Positions 5,595-19,504 of a stretch of 21,789 nucleotides of DNA are shown here, piece by piece; within the stretch, counting starts at the first letter, position 1, and each line of letters opens with the position of its first letter. The DNA comes from a virus, in IMG/VR virus record IMGVR_UViG_3300042465_006730, positions 1 to 21,789 of that record, one strand, 5' to 3'. The notes under the pieces are model-generated. The model was not told the DNA's origin, ran no database searches, and was given only the letters and a program-made list of their open reading frames with translations. A program made the translations under genes and the position numbers.

Positions 5595-7493
5595 TTAACA
5601 TTGTTCTGATGAGAATGCTGTTACTTGTCCAGTTGATGAATTTATATCCCAACTTGCGCCATTCATAAATACATTTGTATAACCTGTTAATGCATTAGGG
5701 AATGTATCAACATATACAAAACATCCAACTCCGAATGTCCCACTATTACAATTTGAATATAATGTTCTGTTGTTTAAACTTGCATCATTACAAGCTCCCG
5801 CAGTAGTACTACCATATCCACAACCACTAAATGATGTTACTGCTGTTGTAGTAGTTGTAGTAGTAGGAGCTATTGTAGTAGTAGTAGTTGTAGTACAAAC
5901 CGGACAAGTTCCTGAATATGTATACGTCAATCCATTAAGAAGAGCTCCTGCTGCAATACATTGTTGAAATACAATTCCAGCACTAGTATACAATGCTGCA
6001 TCTACATAGTTAATACTTCCAGATACATCAACATATGAATAATATCCAAAATAAGCTTCTCCACCAGGATAAGAACCAGTAACAGGAGTTAAACTACATG
6101 TATCATATAATATTGGTGTACATGTACTACCAGAAGGTATTACTGTTGCCACTCCATCATAGGTAAACCCAGTAAGACTTCCACCACCTCCACCTGGTAC
6201 CCAATAAGGATTCGTTCCAACAAATTTACGAAGTACTTGAGAACTAACTGATACTTCTCTAAGAACACCTGTAATACAATCATTATAAAACATACTTCCT
6301 CTATATCCACTTCCATCACTAATCCTAAATCTATATTGTGAACACTCTAAACATGTTGTTGTAGTTGTTGTTGGTCCTGATGTGGTTGTAGTTGTAGGTG
6401 CTGCGGTAGTTGTTGTGGGAATTATACCTGGACAAACTCTATTTGATAATACCCCATAGTTCGTAGTAATTTCCGCACCACTTAATTCTCTATTATATAC
6501 TACTAAATCTTGTATTGTTCCTTTGAAGTAAGTTGCATCTGTATTTGCATTAAATCCAAATTTCAATGGTGATGAAGATACATTAAATGCATTGATGCTT
6601 CCACCACTCATTGTTCCTAATAACGTTGTATCTTTGTATACTGTTATGCTATTAGCTGAATTATTTCCTAATAATGTCCATAATGCTTTAACTGCTGATG
6701 TATTTGTTACAGATATCCTTTTATCTGCACCCGAGTTATCTCTGAATATTAATCTACTCGCACCTGGTTCCCATATAGTATCCCAACCATCACCAAAAAA
6801 ATCTTTACAGAATAAATCTCTATTTACTCCATCATTATACATTGTGCCATACCATTGTAATGTATAATTATTAATAGGTGTTGCGGTTAATGGTTCTTGA
6901 TATGTAATAAAATTATCTGTTCCGTTAAATTCTACCCCCAAAGAACCCGAAGTACCCATTGCGCTTCCACTTACTAACGCATCATTTGAATTACCACTCT
7001 TATCATACCAAATAGAACCAGACAAAGAGTCACAACTTTGCCATGCAACTAATCCACTTTGTACAATCGGAGCTGCAGTTGTAGTTGATGTAGTACTTGT
7101 AGTTGAAGTAGTTGATGTAGTACTTGTAGTTGAAGTAGTTGATGTAGTACTTGTTGTACTAGTTGTTGATGTTGTACTAGTCGTTGTTGTGGTTGGTGCT
7201 GCCGTAGTTGTAGTTGTTGGTGCAGACGTAGTAGTTGTTGTAGGTCCTGCCGTTGTAGTTGTAGTAGTTGTTGGTGTTCCAAAATATTGTACTATTTCAT
7301 TTGTACATTCACCTATACTTGTCAATTTAATACATACAGTATTATCAGGAATCGTTATAAGTACACTTGCACCAACAGAACTTAAAGTTACATTTCCGTA
7401 TGAAGTATATGTAACACAATCTGAGGAATAAGATAAGGTATAGTTAGGACCTGCATTTGCTCCTTTCTCTGTTAGTGTAATTTTTTTCTGCAT
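5595..7493 (-). CDS. Multi-domain virion surface protein with LamG-like domain and poly-Thr linkers
   Basis: From the ATG at 7493 the product is 632 aa. A longer reading starts at 7523 but overlaps the previous gene; the shorter start is preferred because it follows that gene's stop and has an A/T-rich leader. Layout: a small Cys-containing beta module (1-74); a Thr/Ser linker (about 75-141) with AAP/SAP breaks; a LamG/concanavalin-like domain (about 146-352: GLVAWQSCDSLSG, YDKSGNSNDA, VEFNGTDNFI, VVYNRELSGAEI); a Thr linker; a Cys-rich module (about 381-540) with a five-Gly run; a third Thr linker; and a Cys-rich C-terminal module ending SSEQC. LamG-like folds commonly bind glycans, so a host- or mucus-binding virion decoration is plausible. 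Its position between neck genes is unexpected for a fibre. Confidence 0.8.
   Translation of the reverse strand: MQKKITLTEKGANAGPNYTLSYSSDCVTYTSYGNVTLSSVGASVLITIPDNTVCIKLTSIGECTNEIVQYFGTPTTTTTTTAGPTTTTTSAPTTTTTAAPTTTTTSTTSTTSTTSTTSTTSTTSTTSTTSTTSTTSTTTAAPIVQSGLVAWQSCDSLSGSIWYDKSGNSNDALVSGSAMGTSGSLGVEFNGTDNFITYQEPLTATPINNYTLQWYGTMYNDGVNRDLFCKDFFGDGWDTIWEPGASRLIFRDNSGADKRISVTNTSAVKALWTLLGNNSANSITVYKDTTLLGTMSGGSINAFNVSSSPLKFGFNANTDATYFKGTIQDLVVYNRELSGAEITTNYGVLSNRVCPGIIPTTTTAAPTTTTTSGPTTTTTTCLECSQYRFRISDGSGYRGSMFYNDCITGVLREVSVSSQVLRKFVGTNPYWVPGGGGGSLTGFTYDGVATVIPSGSTCTPILYDTCSLTPVTGSYPGGEAYFGYYSYVDVSGSINYVDAALYTSAGIVFQQCIAAGALLNGLTYTYSGTCPVCTTTTTTTIAPTTTTTTTAVTSFSGCGYGSTTAGACNDASLNNRTLYSNCNSGTFGVGCFVYVDTFPNALTGYTNVFMNGASWDINSSTGQVTAFSSEQC
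7081..7154 (-). repeat. Perfect 27-nt tandem repeat in the Thr/Ser linker (about 2.7 copies)
   Basis: On the plus strand the 27-nt unit at 7087-7113 is repeated exactly at 7114-7140 and begins again at 7141, with matching bases just before 7087. Each unit is three 9-nt codon triplets encoding Thr-Thr-Ser. The absence of synonymous drift between the copies points to recent expansion. A 20-nt block (GTTGATGTAGTACTTGTAGT) also occurs at 1150-1169 and 1213-1232 in the left-end modular gene. Confidence 0.85.
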
Positions 7494-7506
7494 GCTTATT
7501 AAACTT

Positions 7507-8025
7507 TTATGGTAGTAAATCAAATAAACATCTCGGTCTATCGTTGTGTGTAGTTAATGTAAATGTTGATACCCACCCCGCTAATCCATTGTTAAACCTA
7601 TCCATAAACGGCTCATTAGTTATTTCACCATCTATATCAAACGCTTGAACTGAGTATTGTGTATAAGAAAGTAAATCGTTTATGATTGCCAATGTATTTG
7701 CGTGTATATCTACTACATCATCTGTACCATAAAAAGGAACTTTCATTGCGTTAGTTCTCGGTTCAGATTCATTATTTCTATCTTTAATTTTATCTGCTAC
7801 AATAAGTTGAACAGTATAATTAGTTGAACTATCACTAAAATCTGCACCTAATATCTGAACATTTCCTATTACATATTGTGGATATTCTTGCTGGTCTACC
7901 GAAAATATATCACCCTGTGCCACCACCTCTATTGAAGGATGGTTTTCCATTATTGTTCTAAAATAATCTAAAACATTGTAATAGAGTGTAAAGTTATTTG
8001 CCGAATTGTTTACTATAAAACTCAT
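7507..8025 (-). CDS. Putative tail-terminator/neck protein
   Basis: This is a 172-aa protein of unassigned family. Visible features are an N-terminal helix-like stretch (YYNVLDYFRTIMENHPSI), a beta-rich middle (QYVIGNVQILGADFSDSSTN, YTVQLIVADK), a helix (HANTLAIINDLLSYT) and a C-terminal strand pair (GLAGWVSTFTLTTHNDRPRC). An alternating helix/strand layout at this length, encoded between a gp6-like connector and a gp10-like protein, is where long-tailed phages often encode the tail terminator. That role is inference from position and length. It lies 9 nt after the connector gene, and its stop (7507) falls 13 nt before the next gene's preferred start. Confidence 0.45.
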   Translation of the reverse strand: MSFIVNNSANNFTLYYNVLDYFRTIMENHPSIEVVAQGDIFSVDQQEYPQYVIGNVQILGADFSDSSTNYTVQLIVADKIKDRNNESEPRTNAMKVPFYGTDDVVDIHANTLAIINDLLSYTQYSVQAFDIDGEITNEPFMDRFNNGLAGWVSTFTLTTHNDRPRCLFDLLP

Positions 8026-10429: not shown

Positions 10430-10987
10430 TTAAGCTGCACTTCCAGTTACAACAGTAGGAACGTTTCCAACTGATGCGAATGGATTTGTTGAAGTTGAAC
10501 CAGAGATGAATTGTGCTGGTAATGGTTCCATACCTGTCAAAGTGATTGAATAACCGTAAAGGTCACCTAATCCTGCGCCAGTTTGAATTGTTCCACCAGT
10601 CAAATCTACACCTTCTGTTAAACCTGCAACCAATGCTTCACCATTAGTTGTCCAAATAATAGCAACCGGTCTTCCGTATGCCATAAGTTTTAACTGAGTA
10701 GTCATTTCAGGAGTTAATTTCTTTAAGTTCAAAGTTAATTCTTGACTAAAGAAAGTTGTTCCGTTATCTCTACTTGAGTTTACAGTTTCAGTATAAGCAC
10801 TATTGCCTTTTAATTGGTAGTAGTAAACAGTTGAACCGCTAGGGAAAGATGTTACTTCACCATTTGCATTAATTGTAAATGTTGGTTGGTAAGAAGATGA
10901 AGGATAGTTCATAAAATAAACTCCCTGCAATCCACCTACTGACTCTTTACAAACTTCTTGTCTACCTGCTGATAAATTACAAGCCAT
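10430..10987 (-). CDS. Major tail (tube) protein
   Basis: This is a 185-aa protein. The N-terminus has CKESVGGLQGVYFMNY, a pattern (C-K-x-x-x-GG-[IL]-x-x-V-Y) that I know from major tail proteins of Bacteroidota phages. It then has FTINANGEVTSF, a DNGTTFFSQELTLNLKKLTP strand-helix, LKLMAYGRPVAIIW, and the segment TGAGLGDLYGYSITLTGMEP typical of the family's C-terminal strands. Size and beta content fit a long-tail tube subunit. It directly follows the capsid gene, an abundant-product pairing, and is bracketed by hairpins (11023-11044 upstream, 10374-10402 downstream). The leader contains a run of ten A (minus strand, 10997-11006) before ATG, a typical A-rich Bacteroidota start region. Confidence 0.75.
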   Translation of the reverse strand: MACNLSAGRQEVCKESVGGLQGVYFMNYPSSSYQPTFTINANGEVTSFPSGSTVYYYQLKGNSAYTETVNSSRDNGTTFFSQELTLNLKKLTPEMTTQLKLMAYGRPVAIIWTTNGEALVAGLTEGVDLTGGTIQTGAGLGDLYGYSITLTGMEPLPAQFISGSTSTNPFASVGNVPTVVTGSAA

Positions 10988-11022
10988 AGTATTTCGTTTT
11001 TTTTTTGTTTAGTTAAAATAGT

Positions 11023-12044: not shown

Positions 12045-12070
12045 TTTTGAAAATATTTTTTGTTTATTAA

Positions 12071-12784
12071 TTATTTATATAATTTAGATAAGAAAGATGC
12101 TTGCGCGTTTTCTACTTTCTTACCAAAGTTATTTCTGTTTGTTTGTGCAAATTTTGCAACTTCTTCAATTGGAGCACCATCTAATTTTGGTAACTCTTCT
12201 TCATCTACTTCTTCCATCATTGTGTTTGGAACTAATGAACTTACTTCCATACCTTCAGATGGGAATGCTGATGTAAATTTCTCCATCATATCTTGCATTC
12301 TTTTTTCCATCTCATCAATTCTATATCCTAATCTTATAATTGGATCTTCTGATGGTTCACCTGCTTCTACTGTGTTAGATTTATCCTCTTCAGTTGTGTT
12401 AGGTAATCCTTTTGCTTCCTTAGTTTCAGCTTCCATTTCAATATCTTTTTCTTCTTTAACGTCAGCTTCTTTATCAACTACTTCTTCTTTCATTTTTTCG
12501 TTTTCTAATTCAACGTTTTCTCTTTCAACGATGATACCATCTTTAGTCATAATTTTAATTAATACTTCGTTTCCTTCAGTATCTCTTAAACTAATTTCAT
12601 GTTCACCGTCTGGTGCTGGAGATTTAGTTCCATCTTCTGATACCACTTCTACTTTCTCACCTACATCAAATGTTGGAGATTGTAAAATTGTTCCATCTGC
12701 TAATTTAGCATCTACGAAATCCATAACTTCGTTATCCATTGCTAACAAAGTCATAATTCTATTTAATACGCTTTTTGAGTTCAT
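12071..12784 (-). CDS. Probable capsid scaffolding protein
   Basis: This is a strongly acidic 237-aa protein. Residues about 20-90 form a small beta module with KLADGTIL, VGEKVEVVSEDG, SPAPDGEHEI and KDGIIVE; the 'PAPDGEHEL' pattern recurs in proteins encoded just upstream of capsid genes in Bacteroidota phages. Residues about 90-145 are Glu/Lys-rich and likely disordered or helical. The segment 150-172 (RLGYRIDEMEKRMQDMMEKF) is a predicted coiled coil. The C-terminus (NAQASFLSKLYK) is basic, as in many scaffolds that bind capsid through a C-terminal helix. It lies 26 nt upstream of the capsid start. Scaffold is the best fit by position and composition; a decoration role for the beta module is an alternative. 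Confidence 0.65.
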   Translation of the reverse strand: MNSKSVLNRIMTLLAMDNEVMDFVDAKLADGTILQSPTFDVGEKVEVVSEDGTKSPAPDGEHEISLRDTEGNEVLIKIMTKDGIIVERENVELENEKMKEEVVDKEADVKEEKDIEMEAETKEAKGLPNTTEEDKSNTVEAGEPSEDPIIRLGYRIDEMEKRMQDMMEKFTSAFPSEGMEVSSLVPNTMMEEVDEEELPKLDGAPIEEVAKFAQTNRNNFGKKVENAQASFLSKLYK

Positions 12785-12801
12785 ATCTTTTGTGTTTTAA
12801 G

Positions 12802-13039: not shown

Positions 13040-16000
13040 TTATGATGCGTTTATAATCATATATCCTACTACATCTGCATCACCATTATGATTTGATGTT
13101 ATAGTAAATGTGCCACTACCTTTTGAACTAACTGCAACATATCCGTTTGAATGGTTAAGAGTTTGTTTAGTTATTAATATAATAGAGTTTGCAGTTACAT
13201 TTGAGTTTGATACTGTTACTGTACCTGGATTACCACCATCTAATGTTGCAATTCCTGTTTGTTTATTAGAACCTGATGGTAAGTATAATTGATTATTATT
13301 ATTATTTGGTGCTATATAGATACTACTACTTACTATTTGAGTTTGTGTAAATGTATTACTTTCTAATGATGCAAATGTATTTTGTCCGTTTAAGTTTAAT
13401 GAGCCTGTAATTGTAACACTACCTGTTGCAATAATTGCATTACTACTAGCTGCATTATTTCCATTTACTATTAATGCCGGCTTACCACCACCTACTGATT
13501 GAGAAACATACATTCCTTTATCAACATATACACTTCTATTATATGCAGTATCTGCTCTGAAATCCATTATCATTGCAGTTCCTAAATAATCTAAACCTAC
13601 TTTGTTTGCACCACCACCACTTCCGGTAATAGTAGAACCACTCATTAAAGAGAAGTAAGTAGAACCACCGCCAGGTAAAGATAATGTTCCGTTTGTTTGT
13701 AATCCCCATTGGAATTCAGAACCCGTATATGCGTTTAATTGGTTTGCGGTTAAGTTTACGTTGAATGCGTATGGTTGTCCTTGATATTGATAAACTTGTA
13801 AACTATCCTTACCATATTGAGTTGCAAATACACCAGGTACACTTCCTGTTGATTGTTGATTGTATTGAATATTAGTTGTACCAAAACCTGTCAATAATAT
13901 TTTAGATGCTGTTATTTCTCCATTTGAATCAATTGATAAATTAGAACCTGTTACTATTAAACTACCTGTTATAGTTTGATTACCATTAAATGAATTACTT
14001 CCGGTTGTTGCGAATGAACTTGTATTAACAGTTCCTACTGCAACACCATTTACTAACAAACTACCTGATATACTAACTACTGATGCACTATCAATTGATA
14101 ATGCTGTTTTTCTATTTGATGTTGATGTACCGGTACCTACTGCAAATATTGTTTTACCACTATCTGCTAATCCTGCATTAATATCATTGTATCTACCAAA
14201 GAATGCACCACCTTGATTAGTTGTATCTGCTACTGATTGTGCTCCACTAACAATTAAGTTATAACCATATACTATTTCATTTCTTAATCCTGCTAAATCA
14301 GTTCCTACTGCATCTGCTTGAATTGTAATTGCACTACCACCTAATAAGTTTGCTACAATTGGTCTACTTACGTTTGTTGAAGGAGAACCTCCTGCATTAA
14401 TTGTAATATTTTGTCCAGCAGTTAGGTTAGAAGCTAATGTTAATGAGTTATTACTACCTGTATGGAAGTAATTATTATTAACTGTTGTTCCACCTAATAT
14501 AGTGTTTGTAGTTGTTAGTATTGATGAACTTGTATGATTTAATGTTAAACCACCTCCACCTACAATGTTATTATTAATTGTTGCAGCTACTGTTCCTGAT
14601 GTTAACCCATTTTGATTAGATGAAATAGTACCATTACTGATATTATTTTGCATCTGAACCGTACCACTCTGATGAAGTAATTGAATTGTAGTTGAGAAAT
14701 TATTATTAACAAAGAATGGTACTGCTATTGAAGAAGTAATAAAGTTCATTGATAATTGTCCAGTACCTATATTGGCCTGAACTGTTGGATTAAACAAAGA
14801 TTGTGTATGTAATAGTGGTATAACTGTAAGATAGTTATTGTTACCATTTACATATCCTCTATCAAATGCTCTCGCTCCAGCTAATGTTTTTACAGGATTG
14901 TGAAGTATATTATTACTTCCTGATATGATAACTGAGCCTGTTTGTGTTGAAAGTAAAGCAGTTCCACCAAATATTAAGTTTGATTGTGTTACCGCGTTTG
15001 ATGCACTTATGTTATATTGTACTGCTCCACTTGCAAAGTTTTGCGAAAATAATTCTATCAAAGATGATGTTGGATTACTTACAATTGCACCTAATATAGT
15101 TTGGTCTCCGGTAAATGTGTTTGAACCTGTTGTTGCAAAACTACCGGTATCAATACTTCCACCACCACCTGGTATAGTAATTGATGCTGTTCCTGCACTT
15201 AATGTTGCAGTTACGCCAGCACCTAAGAAATTAAATGATGTTGCATCTCCTAATATCGTTCCTTCCTCTTGTACTGATACATTTCCACCACCACTACCAC
15301 TCACATTATTTATTCTATTACTTATACTTGCACTAAATGCTCCTAAACTTCCTGTCAATTCTTCAAAGTTTGCACTACCGCTAACACTTAATGATTGAGA
15401 TACAAAGAAAGGCGTTAATGCTGTTATTTTACCATCTGTATAGTTTGCTTTGTTTTGAAAACCAAATACTGCTGGATAAGTATCTAATGCATCATTATTT
15501 ATATAGATTGCTGGTCCTGTTGACCATCCACTAACACCACCACCAACTGCATCAACTAAAAAACCAATTTCATCGTTTGTTGCTATAACACTATTAAATA
15601 TTGCTGCTGGATTTAATCCTGCACTATTAGTTCCATTATTAGTATTTACACTATTTCGTAAGATTGTAGTTTGACCTGATGAGCCTGATACAATTATTCT
15701 TGGTGCAGTTGTTCCGCCCGTTGCTGATGAAGAAACGAATATTTGTCCTACAACCGTTAAATCAGTTGTTGAACTTCCTGATATAGTTACACTACCTGTT
15801 ATAGTTTGGTCACCAACAAATGAGTTACTACCTGTTGTTGCAAAACTTGCAGTATTGATTGAACTACCTGTGATTGCTAATATTCTACTATTCAATGAAG
15901 AACTGAATGGAATAAATTCTACACCTTGTATCCTTGTACCAGTTGATCCACTCAAAATTACATTTCCATTTTTAGCTGTTAAATTTACAAAATCAGACTC

Positions 16001-16561
16001 TAATCTTAATGTATTTGATGAAGATATATATGTTACTACTGGACCATACATAATACCATTACTGTCAAAATTATTATAGTTTTCAAATCTAAATGACCCG
16101 GTTGTAATAGGATTAAAGATTGTTAAATTACCATTTATAGTTTGATTACCTACAAATGTATTTGAACCTGTTGTTGCAAAAGTTGTATTCTTAAAATCTT
16201 GTGATGCAGTATATGCGTTAAAAGATGCAGTAGTTACTAAACTTCCTGTATCTACACTACTACCCGTTACTGAATTTATTCTACTACTAAACGATGCAGA
16301 ATCTGCTTTGTATTGAGACCCACTAAACGTTTGTAATAAACCTACTGATGTTGATATTGCGTTAACAGATGATGTAGTTGCTAATCCATCTATTCTACTA
16401 TCAAATGATGCACTATCAGTTGTGTAAGTATCTTGATTTACTGTATTAAGGATTACCGCATCGTTGTAATCTCTTAGGATTGCGGGAGTGATTGCTCCTG
16501 CGTTATTATTAGGGAAACTAGAATCATTTAATGCTTCTAATTGTGCTTTAGTTAAACCCAT
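13040..16561 (-). CDS. Long repetitive tail/virion fibre protein
   Basis: This is an 1173-aa protein rich in Ser, Gly, Thr and Asn. The N-terminus (MGLTKAQLEALNDSSFPNNN, then ITPAILRDYNDAVI) looks like a helical attachment segment. The rest is beta-helix-like, with TGS/SGS repeats. A signature block ATTGSNxFxGxQTIxG occurs four times, at about 16138-16180, 15799-15843, 15096-15139 and 13969-14012 (residues near 127, 239, 475 and 850), at uneven spacing. A Gly-rich hinge (GGGSIDTGS) precedes the third. The C-terminal ~85 residues (from QLYLPSGSNKQTG) form a compact beta tip. No endosialidase-type autoprotease motif is seen at the end. Such proteins are elongated trimeric fibres in known phages. 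Its location between the chaperone and scaffold genes, away from other tail genes, is odd. Confidence 0.75.
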   Translation of the reverse strand: MGLTKAQLEALNDSSFPNNNAGAITPAILRDYNDAVILNTVNQDTYTTDSASFDSRIDGLATTSSVNAISTSVGLLQTFSGSQYKADSASFSSRINSVTGSSVDTGSLVTTASFNAYTASQDFKNTTFATTGSNTFVGNQTINGNLTIFNPITTGSFRFENYNNFDSNGIMYGPVVTYISSSNTLRLESDFVNLTAKNGNVILSGSTGTRIQGVEFIPFSSSLNSRILAITGSSINTASFATTGSNSFVGDQTITGSVTISGSSTTDLTVVGQIFVSSSATGGTTAPRIIVSGSSGQTTILRNSVNTNNGTNSAGLNPAAIFNSVIATNDEIGFLVDAVGGGVSGWSTGPAIYINNDALDTYPAVFGFQNKANYTDGKITALTPFFVSQSLSVSGSANFEELTGSLGAFSASISNRINNVSGSGGGNVSVQEEGTILGDATSFNFLGAGVTATLSAGTASITIPGGGGSIDTGSFATTGSNTFTGDQTILGAIVSNPTSSLIELFSQNFASGAVQYNISASNAVTQSNLIFGGTALLSTQTGSVIISGSNNILHNPVKTLAGARAFDRGYVNGNNNYLTVIPLLHTQSLFNPTVQANIGTGQLSMNFITSSIAVPFFVNNNFSTTIQLLHQSGTVQMQNNISNGTISSNQNGLTSGTVAATINNNIVGGGGLTLNHTSSSILTTTNTILGGTTVNNNYFHTGSNNSLTLASNLTAGQNITINAGGSPSTNVSRPIVANLLGGSAITIQADAVGTDLAGLRNEIVYGYNLIVSGAQSVADTTNQGGAFFGRYNDINAGLADSGKTIFAVGTGTSTSNRKTALSIDSASVVSISGSLLVNGVAVGTVNTSSFATTGSNSFNGNQTITGSLIVTGSNLSIDSNGEITASKILLTGFGTTNIQYNQQSTGSVPGVFATQYGKDSLQVYQYQGQPYAFNVNLTANQLNAYTGSEFQWGLQTNGTLSLPGGGSTYFSLMSGSTITGSGGGANKVGLDYLGTAMIMDFRADTAYNRSVYVDKGMYVSQSVGGGKPALIVNGNNAASSNAIIATGSVTITGSLNLNGQNTFASLESNTFTQTQIVSSSIYIAPNNNNNQLYLPSGSNKQTGIATLDGGNPGTVTVSNSNVTANSIILITKQTLNHSNGYVAVSSKGSGTFTITSNHNGDADVVGYMIINAS

Positions 16562-16581: not shown

Positions 16582-16866
16582 TTAATATACTACTGTTCCA
16601 ATATCAAAACCATCTGAGAAACCACTACTAAAACCACCTCTTGTCGCAAATTGTGCCGGTGCTTCTATCACACCTATACCTTGCTCCATCAATGCTCCGT
16701 TACAACAATCTCTACCATATCTATTCTCATTCAAACACAAACATCCCCTTCTATTGTTCTTAGGAGAGGATAGACCACGTGTTGGGCCAATGAATATGCC
16801 ACTATTATTCTCTCTATTGACAGAATATCTAAGGTTACCGTTTCTACTATTGCTCCACCTGCCCAT
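16582..16866 (-). CDS. Small Cys-rich conserved phage protein (GCLC...CC...QGIG motif)
   Basis: This is a 94-aa protein. A basic/Asn-rich N-terminus is followed by GCLCLNENRYGRDCCNG (Cys 42, 44, 54, 55) and then EQGIG (61-65). I recall small proteins with this CLC-x(9)-CC...QGIG signature near fibre genes of Bacteroidota phages, but I know no function for them. The C-terminal part (GGFSSGFSDGFDIG) is Gly/Phe/Ser-rich. Four closely spaced Cys could bind a metal or form disulfides. The gene lies 20 nt upstream of the fibre, and its own leader carries the third GGTGTTAAAGA motif. A role in fibre assembly or as a virion tip is a guess from position. Confidence 0.65.
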   Translation of the reverse strand: MGRWSNSRNGNLRYSVNRENNSGIFIGPTRGLSSPKNNRRGCLCLNENRYGRDCCNGALMEQGIGVIEAPAQFATRGGFSSGFSDGFDIGTVVY

Positions 16867-16912: not shown

Positions 16913-17682
16913 TTATTTGATGCCTTTAAGTGACTCTTTGTGTATTAAGGTTTCTAAAAAGCTTTTATCTGCTTTATAAGCTAAGAGTAGTAAACACTTC
17001 TCTAATGGTTGATTAATTATTTCATCTATAGCTCTGATATCACCGTTTGCAAGTTCAATAATGCTTGCGTATGATTTCCACTTTTTTCCAAAGTTTGCTT
17101 GATGTTGTGTAGGTACTCCTCCTGCATCACTATCGTAGAGTTCAGGGTATAATTGAGTAAGTCCGTTAACATACGAACAAAAAAAAACAGAGTACCAAAG
17201 TGTATATCCATGCTTACATTTAACCACTTAGTTTCATCTATCTTACCATCGTATGCTTTTATACTATACGAATCAAATAGTTTCTTTTCTACTGGTCTGT
17301 ATAGTATACTCATTATCTTTCCCCAATTGTTATCTATTGCCAATGCATCGTATTTAGTTATATCACAGAATGCTCCGTATGTCATATTAGATAAGTTAGG
17401 TTCAAATCCATACTCTATACCATCTATTTGGATAAATCTTTGTAATTCGTATTGTGTATTACCCATAAAGGTTGCTAACGTTGAAACGACTTCATTATAA
17501 GATTCTTTTGATAATGATTTGATTTGTTCTAAGTTAATACCGCATAAGTGATGTAACATAAATGCTATACTCGCCTCTTCATCATCTTTATAATTTTCTA
17601 AATCACTTTGTAGGGCTAGATACTTACTTAATGTAATATCTTTCCAACTATCAGGTATGGTAATGTTAATCGTTTGTTTCAT
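16913..17682 (-). CDS. Tail assembly chaperone, -1 frameshift fusion product (256 aa)
   Basis: Reading starts at 17682, proceeds 168 codons to the end of a nine-T run (minus strand, 17187-17179), slips back one base and continues from TGT at 17179 to a stop at 16913. This adds 88 residues that do not look like noise: NFGKKWKSYASIIELANGDI and EIINQPLEKCLLLLAYKADK. I associate the pattern 'W-x-x-Y-x-x-I-x-x-LA-x-GD ... PL-x-x-CL' with C-termini of chaperone-like proteins in Bacteroidota phages. The extension has only a GTG (17227) as an independent start, deep inside the upstream frame, and without the extension a 159-nt gap would be unexplained. In long-tailed phages, ribosomal frameshifting makes the short and long chaperones that load tail-tube protein on the tape measure. 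The fusion is inferred, not proven. Confidence 0.65.
17026..17682 (-). CDS. Tail assembly chaperone, unshifted product (218 aa)
   Basis: This is the frame-0 product of the chaperone-like gene. Recognisable elements are NITIPDSWKDITLSKYLALQ, GIEYGFEPNLSNMTYGAFCD, SILYRPVEKK and SMDIHFGTLFFFVRML. The order 'IP-x-SW-x-D-I-T', 'F-x-P-x-L-x-x-MT-x-G' and 'YRP' is one I know from a protein family found in the tail module of Bacteroidota phages. After the Phe run (166-168) frame 0 continues for 50 residues in a helical, Gln/Asn-rich tail (QTVISEL end) that overlaps the alternative frame. The start at 17682 overlaps the preceding coiled-coil gene by 17 nt. If the frameshift call is wrong, this is the only product and 16913-17025 is non-coding or a separate GTG-started gene. 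Confidence 0.75.
   Translation of the reverse strand: MKQTINITIPDSWKDITLSKYLALQSDLENYKDDEEASIAFMLHHLCGINLEQIKSLSKESYNEVVSTLATFMGNTQYELQRFIQIDGIEYGFEPNLSNMTYGAFCDITKYDALAIDNNWGKIMSILYRPVEKKLFDSYSIKAYDGKIDETKWLNVSMDIHFGTLFFFVRMLTDLLNYTLNSTIVMQEEYLHNIKQTLEKSGNHTQALLNLQTVISEL
17179..17187 (-). other. Slippery run T9, candidate -1 ribosomal frameshift site
   Basis: Nine consecutive T on the minus strand are read in frame 0 as TTT TTT TTT followed by GTT. A one-base backward slip re-pairs tRNA-Phe perfectly. Immediately downstream GTTCG and CGGAC could form a 5-bp stem (one G-U) with an 8-nt loop, although the spacer is shorter than in classic stimulators. Confidence 0.6.
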
Positions 17683-18319: not shown

Positions 18320-19504
18320 TTATCTTATTGAAATACTATATTTACCTGCGTTTATCTTTTTTGCATTTAACATTTCCATTACACCATAACGAAGGGCATC
18401 TAATAAGTGATTGTTCGCATCTATTGGTATATTTGTAACACCACCATTACCATCATCAACCCATTCGTATGAATATAACTCTTCTATTAAGTTACTATTA
18501 TTTTTCGGTATTACCAAATTATATTGCTTAACTAAATCTATTCCCCATTGTATACTATCCTTACCTTTCTTAACACCTTTTGCTAATGGAAACCCACCTC
18601 TACGGATTTCTTCAATAAGACGAGGTTCTGCACTATCTACAATTATAATATCTCTTTCACCAACATTACCTTTTAATAAATCTATTATCTGTTGTGTAAT
18701 AAGACCTTTCTGATATATGTGTTCGTTTATAATTAATTTATTTCCTGCTTTCCATATACCAACTAATGCAGTAGGGTCACTTACATATCCTATATCCATT
18801 GCAAAACAAACAAACTCTGCTGTATCAAAATCAAACTCATCTACTATCTCAAATTCATATATCTGTTTCTCATTCACTGCAAACTGACCTAAACCATATG
18901 TCATCCAATATCTAGGGTTTGTATCTCTATACTTCTCAATGAATTGTACTTGTTCTGATGGTAGGTAAGGATTATCTCTGTATGTAGTAATAAATAATTC
19001 TGCATCATCTCTAACCGCTAATTCACTTATAATATAATGCTTTGGTGAGAATGATGGATTGAATGATAGGAGTATTTGACCTGTTGTTCTGATTGCTAAC
19101 TGCATAAACTGTTCGTGAGATAATTCATTAGCTTCATCTACCCACAATATATCTCTTTTTAATCCTTTAAGTTTTTCTGCACTATCCGTTGAAAAGAATT
19201 CTATTTGTGAATCATTATCAAATGTAAATGTATGCTCAGTTGCCATATACTTATCTTCATCCCATAGACCTAACTCTTTCATTATATCTTTGAAATCTCT
19301 TAGTGCCGATGTTCGCAGTGCTGGAAAGGTTTTTCTTACAATAGAGATTAATTTCTTTTCCTCTAATGCTTTTACTATTAAGAACTGAATGATAGAATAA
19401 CTTTTACCTGACCTAGCTGAACCTTGATGTAATTGTATCTTTGCTGTTGAGTTGTAACAATTCTGAAATGTTTTAGTTGTTGTTATCTTCAGTTCCATTG
19501 CCAC
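18320..19504 (-). CDS. terL: Terminase large subunit (ATPase-nuclease)
   Basis: This 394-aa protein is the DNA-packaging motor. ATPase: Walker A GSARSGKS (28-35), Walker B ILWVDEANEL (119-128, with D123 and E124), and the coupling motif LLSFNPSFSPKH (145-156). Nuclease: an RNase H-like domain with acidic residues in AMDIGY (D237), VDSAEP (D290) and HLLDALRY (D369). The order, spacing and length are those of compact phage large terminases, and all key residues are present, so it should be active. The start overlaps the small-terminase-like gene by 32 nt; an in-frame Met two codons later is an alternative. It packages DNA into the prohead through the portal encoded at 8557-9894. Confidence 0.95.
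   Translation of the reverse strand: MAMELKITTTKTFQNCYNSTAKIQLHQGSARSGKSYSIIQFLIVKALEEKKLISIVRKTFPALRTSALRDFKDIMKELGLWDEDKYMATEHTFTFDNDSQIEFFSTDSAEKLKGLKRDILWVDEANELSHEQFMQLAIRTTGQILLSFNPSFSPKHYIISELAVRDDAELFITTYRDNPYLPSEQVQFIEKYRDTNPRYWMTYGLGQFAVNEKQIYEFEIVDEFDFDTAEFVCFAMDIGYVSDPTALVGIWKAGNKLIINEHIYQKGLITQQIIDLLKGNVGERDIIIVDSAEPRLIEEIRRGGFPLAKGVKKGKDSIQWGIDLVKQYNLVIPKNNSNLIEELYSYEWVDDGNGGVTNIPIDANNHLLDALRYGVMEMLNAKKINAGKYSISIR

Follow-up and report, generated by a model that had tools for sequence, protein, structure and literature searches.

A conserved run of nine or ten T residues joins two overlapping frames of a candidate tail-assembly gene in Bacteroidetes-linked phages

Two overlapping frames at a T9 run

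In the stretch of viral DNA analyzed here (21,789 nucleotides, referred to as the window), an open reading frame on the minus strand crosses nine consecutive T residues, and the frame shifted by -1 stays open from that run onward. Does this locus represent one gene with two products, and, if so, which enzyme slips at the run and what do the products do? We are nearly certain that a programmed shift at this site is real and deeply conserved. The explanation as a whole, namely, a two-product gene of Bacteroidetes-linked tailed phages that is expressed via RNA polymerase slippage and encodes a probable tail-assembly pair, appears likely to us; within it, we infer the polymerase as the slipping enzyme, the product ratio, and the tail-assembly role.

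The frame-0 open reading frame (17026..17682, minus strand) encodes a predicted short product of 218 amino acids (aa), composed of an N-terminal domain (residues 1 to ~166) that would be shared by both products and its own tail of ~50 aa. The T9 run (17179..17187, minus strand) is read in frame 0 as TTT TTT TTT, in the context CTG TTT TTT TTT GTT (run at 17187-17179). The -1-frame extension (16913..17179, minus strand) comprises 88 aa (CSYVNGLTQLYPELYDSDAGG...HKESLKGIK) and a stop codon at 16913-16915, contains no Met codon, and would form the C-terminal half of a long, shifted product of 256 aa (16913..17682, minus strand), which is predicted from the -1 relation present in 487 of 488 loci. 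Frame 0 continues for ~50 residues beyond T9, and ~150 nucleotides (nt; 17026..17179, minus strand) are thus read in both frames. If the extension is ignored, a gap of 159 nt precedes the next gene, which starts at 16866. A first-pass annotation had given the two frames, the run, the gap, and the continuation of frame 0, and had stated that the extension has no ATG of its own; all of this proved correct on re-reading of the sequence.

A T9 run is by itself unremarkable in this AT-rich window. Dinucleotide shuffles contained 2.3 matches on average over the two strands, and 33 of 100 shuffles had at least the 3 matches observed. Since about two such runs are expected per window, the case is built on the comparison with relatives. 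The window also holds a plus-strand T10 (10997-11006; A10 on the coding strand), which is intergenic and lies just upstream of a 185-aa gene (10430-10987), and some relatives have an A9 immediately before start codons.

Conservation of the slip site and of the -1 relation

Relatives were drawn, by searches with the frame-0 product and the extension, from IMG/VR, the isolated Nonlabens phages P12024S/L, and one Bacteroidetes MAG contig. The final comparison comprised 498 loci, in which profile hidden Markov models (HMMs) of both halves detected both domains in 488; loci with a single domain end at the contig edge, as verified on an earlier locus set. Scans of genome contigs were empty in a first round and yielded the MAG contig in a second, and a search with the N-terminal profile against 395 genomes of the phylum of this contig recovered only that same genome; the most distant members gave an N-terminal alignment that is too diverged for scanning. 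The two halves stand in a -1 relation in 487 of the 488 two-domain loci and are fused in frame in none of them. The only exception (L028:2150-2250) has an intact T9 and is the sole locus in which the extension is disrupted by a further one-base indel, located beyond the run. Both Nonlabens phages carry the same T9, with the shift unannotated. The mean column identity of the extension is 63% (42 sequences), and its identity drops to 24 to 38% among relatives.

The two-domain loci correspond to 347 distinct sequences, of which 310 have T9 at the junction, 36 have T10, and 1 has T8; none has a run longer than T10. These sequences are not independent, but the pattern is unchanged in 83 of them whose pairwise differences all exceed 12%. 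The single T8 belongs to a locus of 51% GC (L494), and T9/T10 is kept also in loci of 45 to 49% GC. Only one other run of at least nine T was present in 1.05 Mb of related loci. The conservation of T9/T10 at the junction is far beyond chance. In single lineages (L046, L087, L092, and L177), the run has shifted its position relative to its surroundings at unchanged length. A G or C precedes the run in 334 of the 347 distinct relatives. No A occurs at this place in any of the 101 cases in which the run starts in codon phase 0, even though A is the most frequent third base other than T. Potyvirus slip sites likewise have a G before the run (PMC4552492).

Relatives in which the T run is broken while both frames persist, or in which the -1 frame is filled with stops, had been named in the first-pass annotation as evidence that would speak against a frameshift; none occurs among the 347 distinct sequences, the shortest run being the single T8. 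On the evidence of the relatives, we also rejected the possibility that the locus is a pseudogene.

Both frames code beyond the run

To determine how far frame 0 would remain open by chance, synonymous codons of the -1 protein were re-drawn with local codon usage, and the open length of frame 0 was measured. On average, frame 0 is open for 53 codons past the run, versus ~10 expected, and in 85% of the loci fewer than 5% of the re-draws attain the observed length. That frame 0 is kept open for ~50 codons beyond the run indicates that the short product retains its own tail. We also compared synonymous sites in the overlap, as had been proposed at the outset, and the closest pairs give no clean signal. 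In pairs of 45 to 80% identity, third bases were more conserved in the overlap: identity at four-fold sites of the -1 frame was 0.62 to 0.73 in the overlap, versus 0.47 to 0.64 after it and 0.43 to 0.61 upstream. The open frame 0 and the constraint on four-fold sites imply that the short and long products, with their different C termini, both appear to matter. Taken together, the conserved slip site, the conserved -1 relation, and the constraint on both frames bear out the short/long frameshift first proposed and strongly support, at the level of sequence comparison, that a programmed frameshift gives rise to two products.

Polymerase or ribosome

Given a real shift, RNA polymerase is probably the enzyme that slips. 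The run starts in codon phase 0, 1, and 2 (codon positions 1, 2, and 3) in 101, 241, and 5 of the 347 distinct relatives, respectively, which is the phase independence expected of programmed transcriptional slippage; the conserved A/T homopolymer of about nine or more that is also expected of this process is present in 346 of 347 (T9/T10). A large share of bacterial genomes show signs of selection against slippage-prone runs from a length of nine A/T onward (PMC1088944). In potyvirus transcriptional slippage, the same phase argument was applied, and slippage was shown by RNA sequencing (PMC4552492).

The main alternative is programmed -1 ribosomal frameshifting, in which tRNA-Phe would slip in tandem on a U_UUU_UUU within the run and the long protein would arise in the way that lambda GT does. 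We consider it unlikely, although several observations fit it. The in-phase heptamer X_XXY_YYZ expected of it is available as U_UUU_UUU inside every run, whatever the phase of T9/T10 and also within the one T8, a length that would suit the ribosome; product direction and gene arrangement are the same as in lambda G/GT; stimulators are dispensable for some heptamers; and there is some constraint on the amino acids that the run encodes (FF, hydrophobic). However, only in phase 0 does U_UUU_UUU require nine T; T8 would be enough for phase 1, and T7 for phase 2. Nine or ten T are nonetheless present in 245 of 246 phase-1/2 cases, in excess of what the heptamer needs. Of the 241 phase-1 cases, 240 retain the ninth T even though the amino acid specified by its codon varies (Y, W, S, C, L, or F), so that conservation concerns the T itself rather than the frame-0 residue. 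At the aligned place of the long product, the residue differs between phase groups (L/F versus C/Y/S, as judged by eye). TTC never replaces TTT inside the run among the relatives. RNAalifold analysis of 63 relatives from -60 to +100, a model that does not include pseudoknots, gave -0.57 kcal/mol with 0 compensatory pairs, i.e., no conserved structure, including the downstream stem-loop at 5 to 9 nt that is common but not universal in ribosomal frameshifting; a hairpin in the window has a z score of 0.45.

The varying codon phase, the retained ninth T, and the absence of a conserved RNA structure in that analysis thus favor transcriptional slippage, although not conclusively, and ribosomes may slip on the same U run in addition to the polymerase. 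Of the -1 frameshift at T9 as first annotated, the shift itself stands, and phase drift and the kept ninth T make the slipping agent lean toward RNA polymerase over the ribosome.

Other explanations of the arrangement

The remaining explanations dispense with a programmed shift. That the halves are two separate proteins, with the extension translated alone (through internal initiation or coupling) and the T run playing no part, is very improbable. The extension of P12024S does contain an internal ATG, and GenBank annotates gp39 in this way, separately from gp38; yet the extension in the window has no Met codon, conservation starts at the run itself, and T9 and the -1 relation would be left without a reason for their conservation. 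The 56-aa gp39 of P12024S (L106:4534-4701) corresponds to what is left of the -1 extension from its internal ATG onward; gp38 and gp39 would then be one shifted gene, and their annotation should be merged.

Slightly less probable again is phase variation, in which frameshift mutations change the length of the run in the DNA and switch the long protein on and off. Homopolymers are mutable, and both T9 and T10 exist, but none of the 488 loci has the halves in one frame, the flanks of the T10 runs are adjusted such that the -1 relation is preserved, and runs of 11 or more are absent. A sequencing or assembly error at the homopolymer, the true gene being in one frame, has a negligible probability: such runs are error-prone, but the arrangement is shared by 487 loci that many different studies contributed, two isolated phages have it as well, and frame 0 is constrained beyond the run too.

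Protein homology and predicted structure

Separate profile searches of the two halves, suggested in the first-pass annotation, were productive in part. The N-terminal domain matches phrog_32199 (E value of 3e-20), which is the family of P12024S gp38, has no annotated function, and does not include the -1 extension; no Pfam match was found for the protein. The AlphaFold model of the frame-0 product has a mean pLDDT of 82 and a pTM of 0.74; the first ~175 residues are modelled well, and a long helix spans the slip site. The extension, which was folded separately, is modelled as helical. Fold searches of the PDB gave no convincing match. Foldseek matches in BFVD were mostly uncharacterised phage proteins, and a protein annotated as tail assembly chaperone ranked 43rd, as a weak match (probability of 0.94, E value of 0.02, TM score of 0.34). 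Six predicted viral proteins of 234 to 267 aa (A0A6J5N0W0, A0A516L5A8, A0A6J5SVK3, A0A6J5N3F3, A0A6J5MY57, and A0A6J7XA66) match both the N-terminal and the extension models, the extension matches being weak (E values of 0.36 or more). This is as expected if the halves belong to one protein, and the model comparison suggests that single-chain homologues of both halves exist in more distant phages.

The gp10 of Flavobacterium phage 6H, a weak structural match (TM score of 0.28), lacks a T9 and was left out of consideration. In the unannotated stretch after this gene (L262:9900-11000), a coherent protein seems to cross into the +1 and then the -1 frame, possibly through a double shift or a sequencing error.

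Genomic context and a possible role in tail assembly

In the window, the upstream neighbor encodes the large terminase subunit TerL (18320..19504, minus strand; PHROG terminase matches), and the next gene downstream (16582..16866, minus strand) encodes 94 aa with no assigned function. Among 347 loci, 274 have a TerL homologue upstream of the shift gene and none has one downstream; 108 have a homologue of the 94-aa gene on the downstream side. Genes for tail-terminator-like, neck, and tail proteins follow in about 140 to 210 loci; in the clade of the window, the 94-aa gene and a tail fibre gene do so. The shift gene is placed just behind the large terminase gene and heads a tail module in most relatives. 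A tape-measure-like gene was found in P12024S and three other relatives, not directly beside the shift gene; in P12024S it is gp49 (E value of 2e-4), which begins ~6.5 kb downstream.

Does the gene then act as a tail assembly chaperone? As in lambda gpG/gpGT, a short and a long product would share an N-terminal domain, and the -1 shift occurs close to the end of the first frame, the second having no start of its own. Such overlapping -1 frames were present in 487 of 488 loci, with an internal Met in the extension of P12024S. Several features differ from lambda: (i) the slip site is a homopolymer (T9/T10) and not a codon-phased heptamer, and the shift probably takes place at transcription; (ii) frame 0 has a long tail that overlaps the -1 frame by ~150 nt; and (iii) the gene lies behind TerL, with the tape-measure gene not adjacent, and not in the position between the major tail protein and tape-measure genes that is typical of G/GT. 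Lambda-type tail assembly chaperones usually show little sequence similarity between phages. The earlier designation as tail-chaperone-like is an analogy that fits the two-product -1 layout; the protein has no Pfam or informative PHROG match and one weak structural match to an annotated tail assembly chaperone, and its gene is not adjacent to the tape-measure gene. By analogy and from its neighborhood, a tail-assembly role is plausible, and we lean somewhat toward a gene that works like a G/GT-type chaperone.

Proposed mechanism and comparison with known systems

We propose that frame 0 is read from most transcripts, which would yield the short protein with its N-terminal domain and mostly helical tail of ~50 aa. 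In a fraction of the transcripts, RNA polymerase would slip at T9/T10, adding one T (or losing two); normal translation of these transcripts would produce the long protein, which carries the helical -1-frame domain of 80 to 90 aa instead of the tail. The +1 frame is closed within 13 codons in all loci, and the remaining slippage products would terminate within that distance. The fixed minority of long protein would then probably team up with the short one, like lambda gpG/gpGT, to assist tail assembly as a scaffold or as chaperones. The full combination, in which Bacteroidetes-linked phages make a fixed tail-assembly protein pair by programmed RNA polymerase slippage at T9/T10, is put forward tentatively, at slightly below an even chance.

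Programmed transcriptional slippage in bacteria has been described for mxiE and spa13 of Shigella, dnaX of Thermus, tssM of Citrobacter, and insertion sequence (IS) elements (PMC5009743, PMC4256274, PMC1088944). These genes likewise use an A/T run of about nine or more to produce two length variants; unlike them, the present family belongs to phages, keeps almost strictly T9/T10 across hundreds of diverged relatives, and has two alternative C termini that are both long and constrained. Potyvirus P3N-PIPO (GA6 site) resembles it in that a conserved short homopolymer occurs in every codon phase among relatives and a base insertion opens a conserved overlapping frame, but it involves an RNA virus polymerase, an A6 run, and ~2% slippage (PMC4552492).

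Programmed frameshifts in phage tail genes are usually regarded as ribosomal, and we know of no other phage structural gene with programmed RNA polymerase slippage. In the accessible portions of the literature, subscription papers aside, we found no paper that ascribes transcriptional slippage to a phage tail gene (reviews PMC5009743 and PMC3711429), and the available parts of the PRFect and GeneTack papers (PMC10885494 and PMC3711429) do not describe this family. A slippage remark on a Campylobacter phage concerns a methyltransferase (PMC2853527). The data point to an unannotated gene family in hundreds of environmental Bacteroidetes-linked phages, in which a polymerase-type slip site is near-absolutely conserved while its codon phase drifts. 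If the proposal is true, a fixed ratio of two chaperone forms would be set during transcription, in the manner of type III secretion needle genes. It would also mean that gene callers drop or split a conserved domain of 80 to 90 aa in these genomes, including those of the isolates P12024S/L, which allow direct testing.

Other features of the window

Further downstream of the 94-aa gene, the window encodes a tail-fibre-like protein of 1173 aa (13040-16561), in which SGS/TGS motifs recur and the C terminus carries a K1-lyase_C domain (PF24146, E value of 4e-12). In two tail-region proteins (3-2021 and 5595-7523), small repeated domains are separated by long T/S-rich (TTS)n stretches. At 12060-12800, a plus-strand open reading frame of 246 aa mirrors a minus-strand gene of 237 aa nearly end to end.
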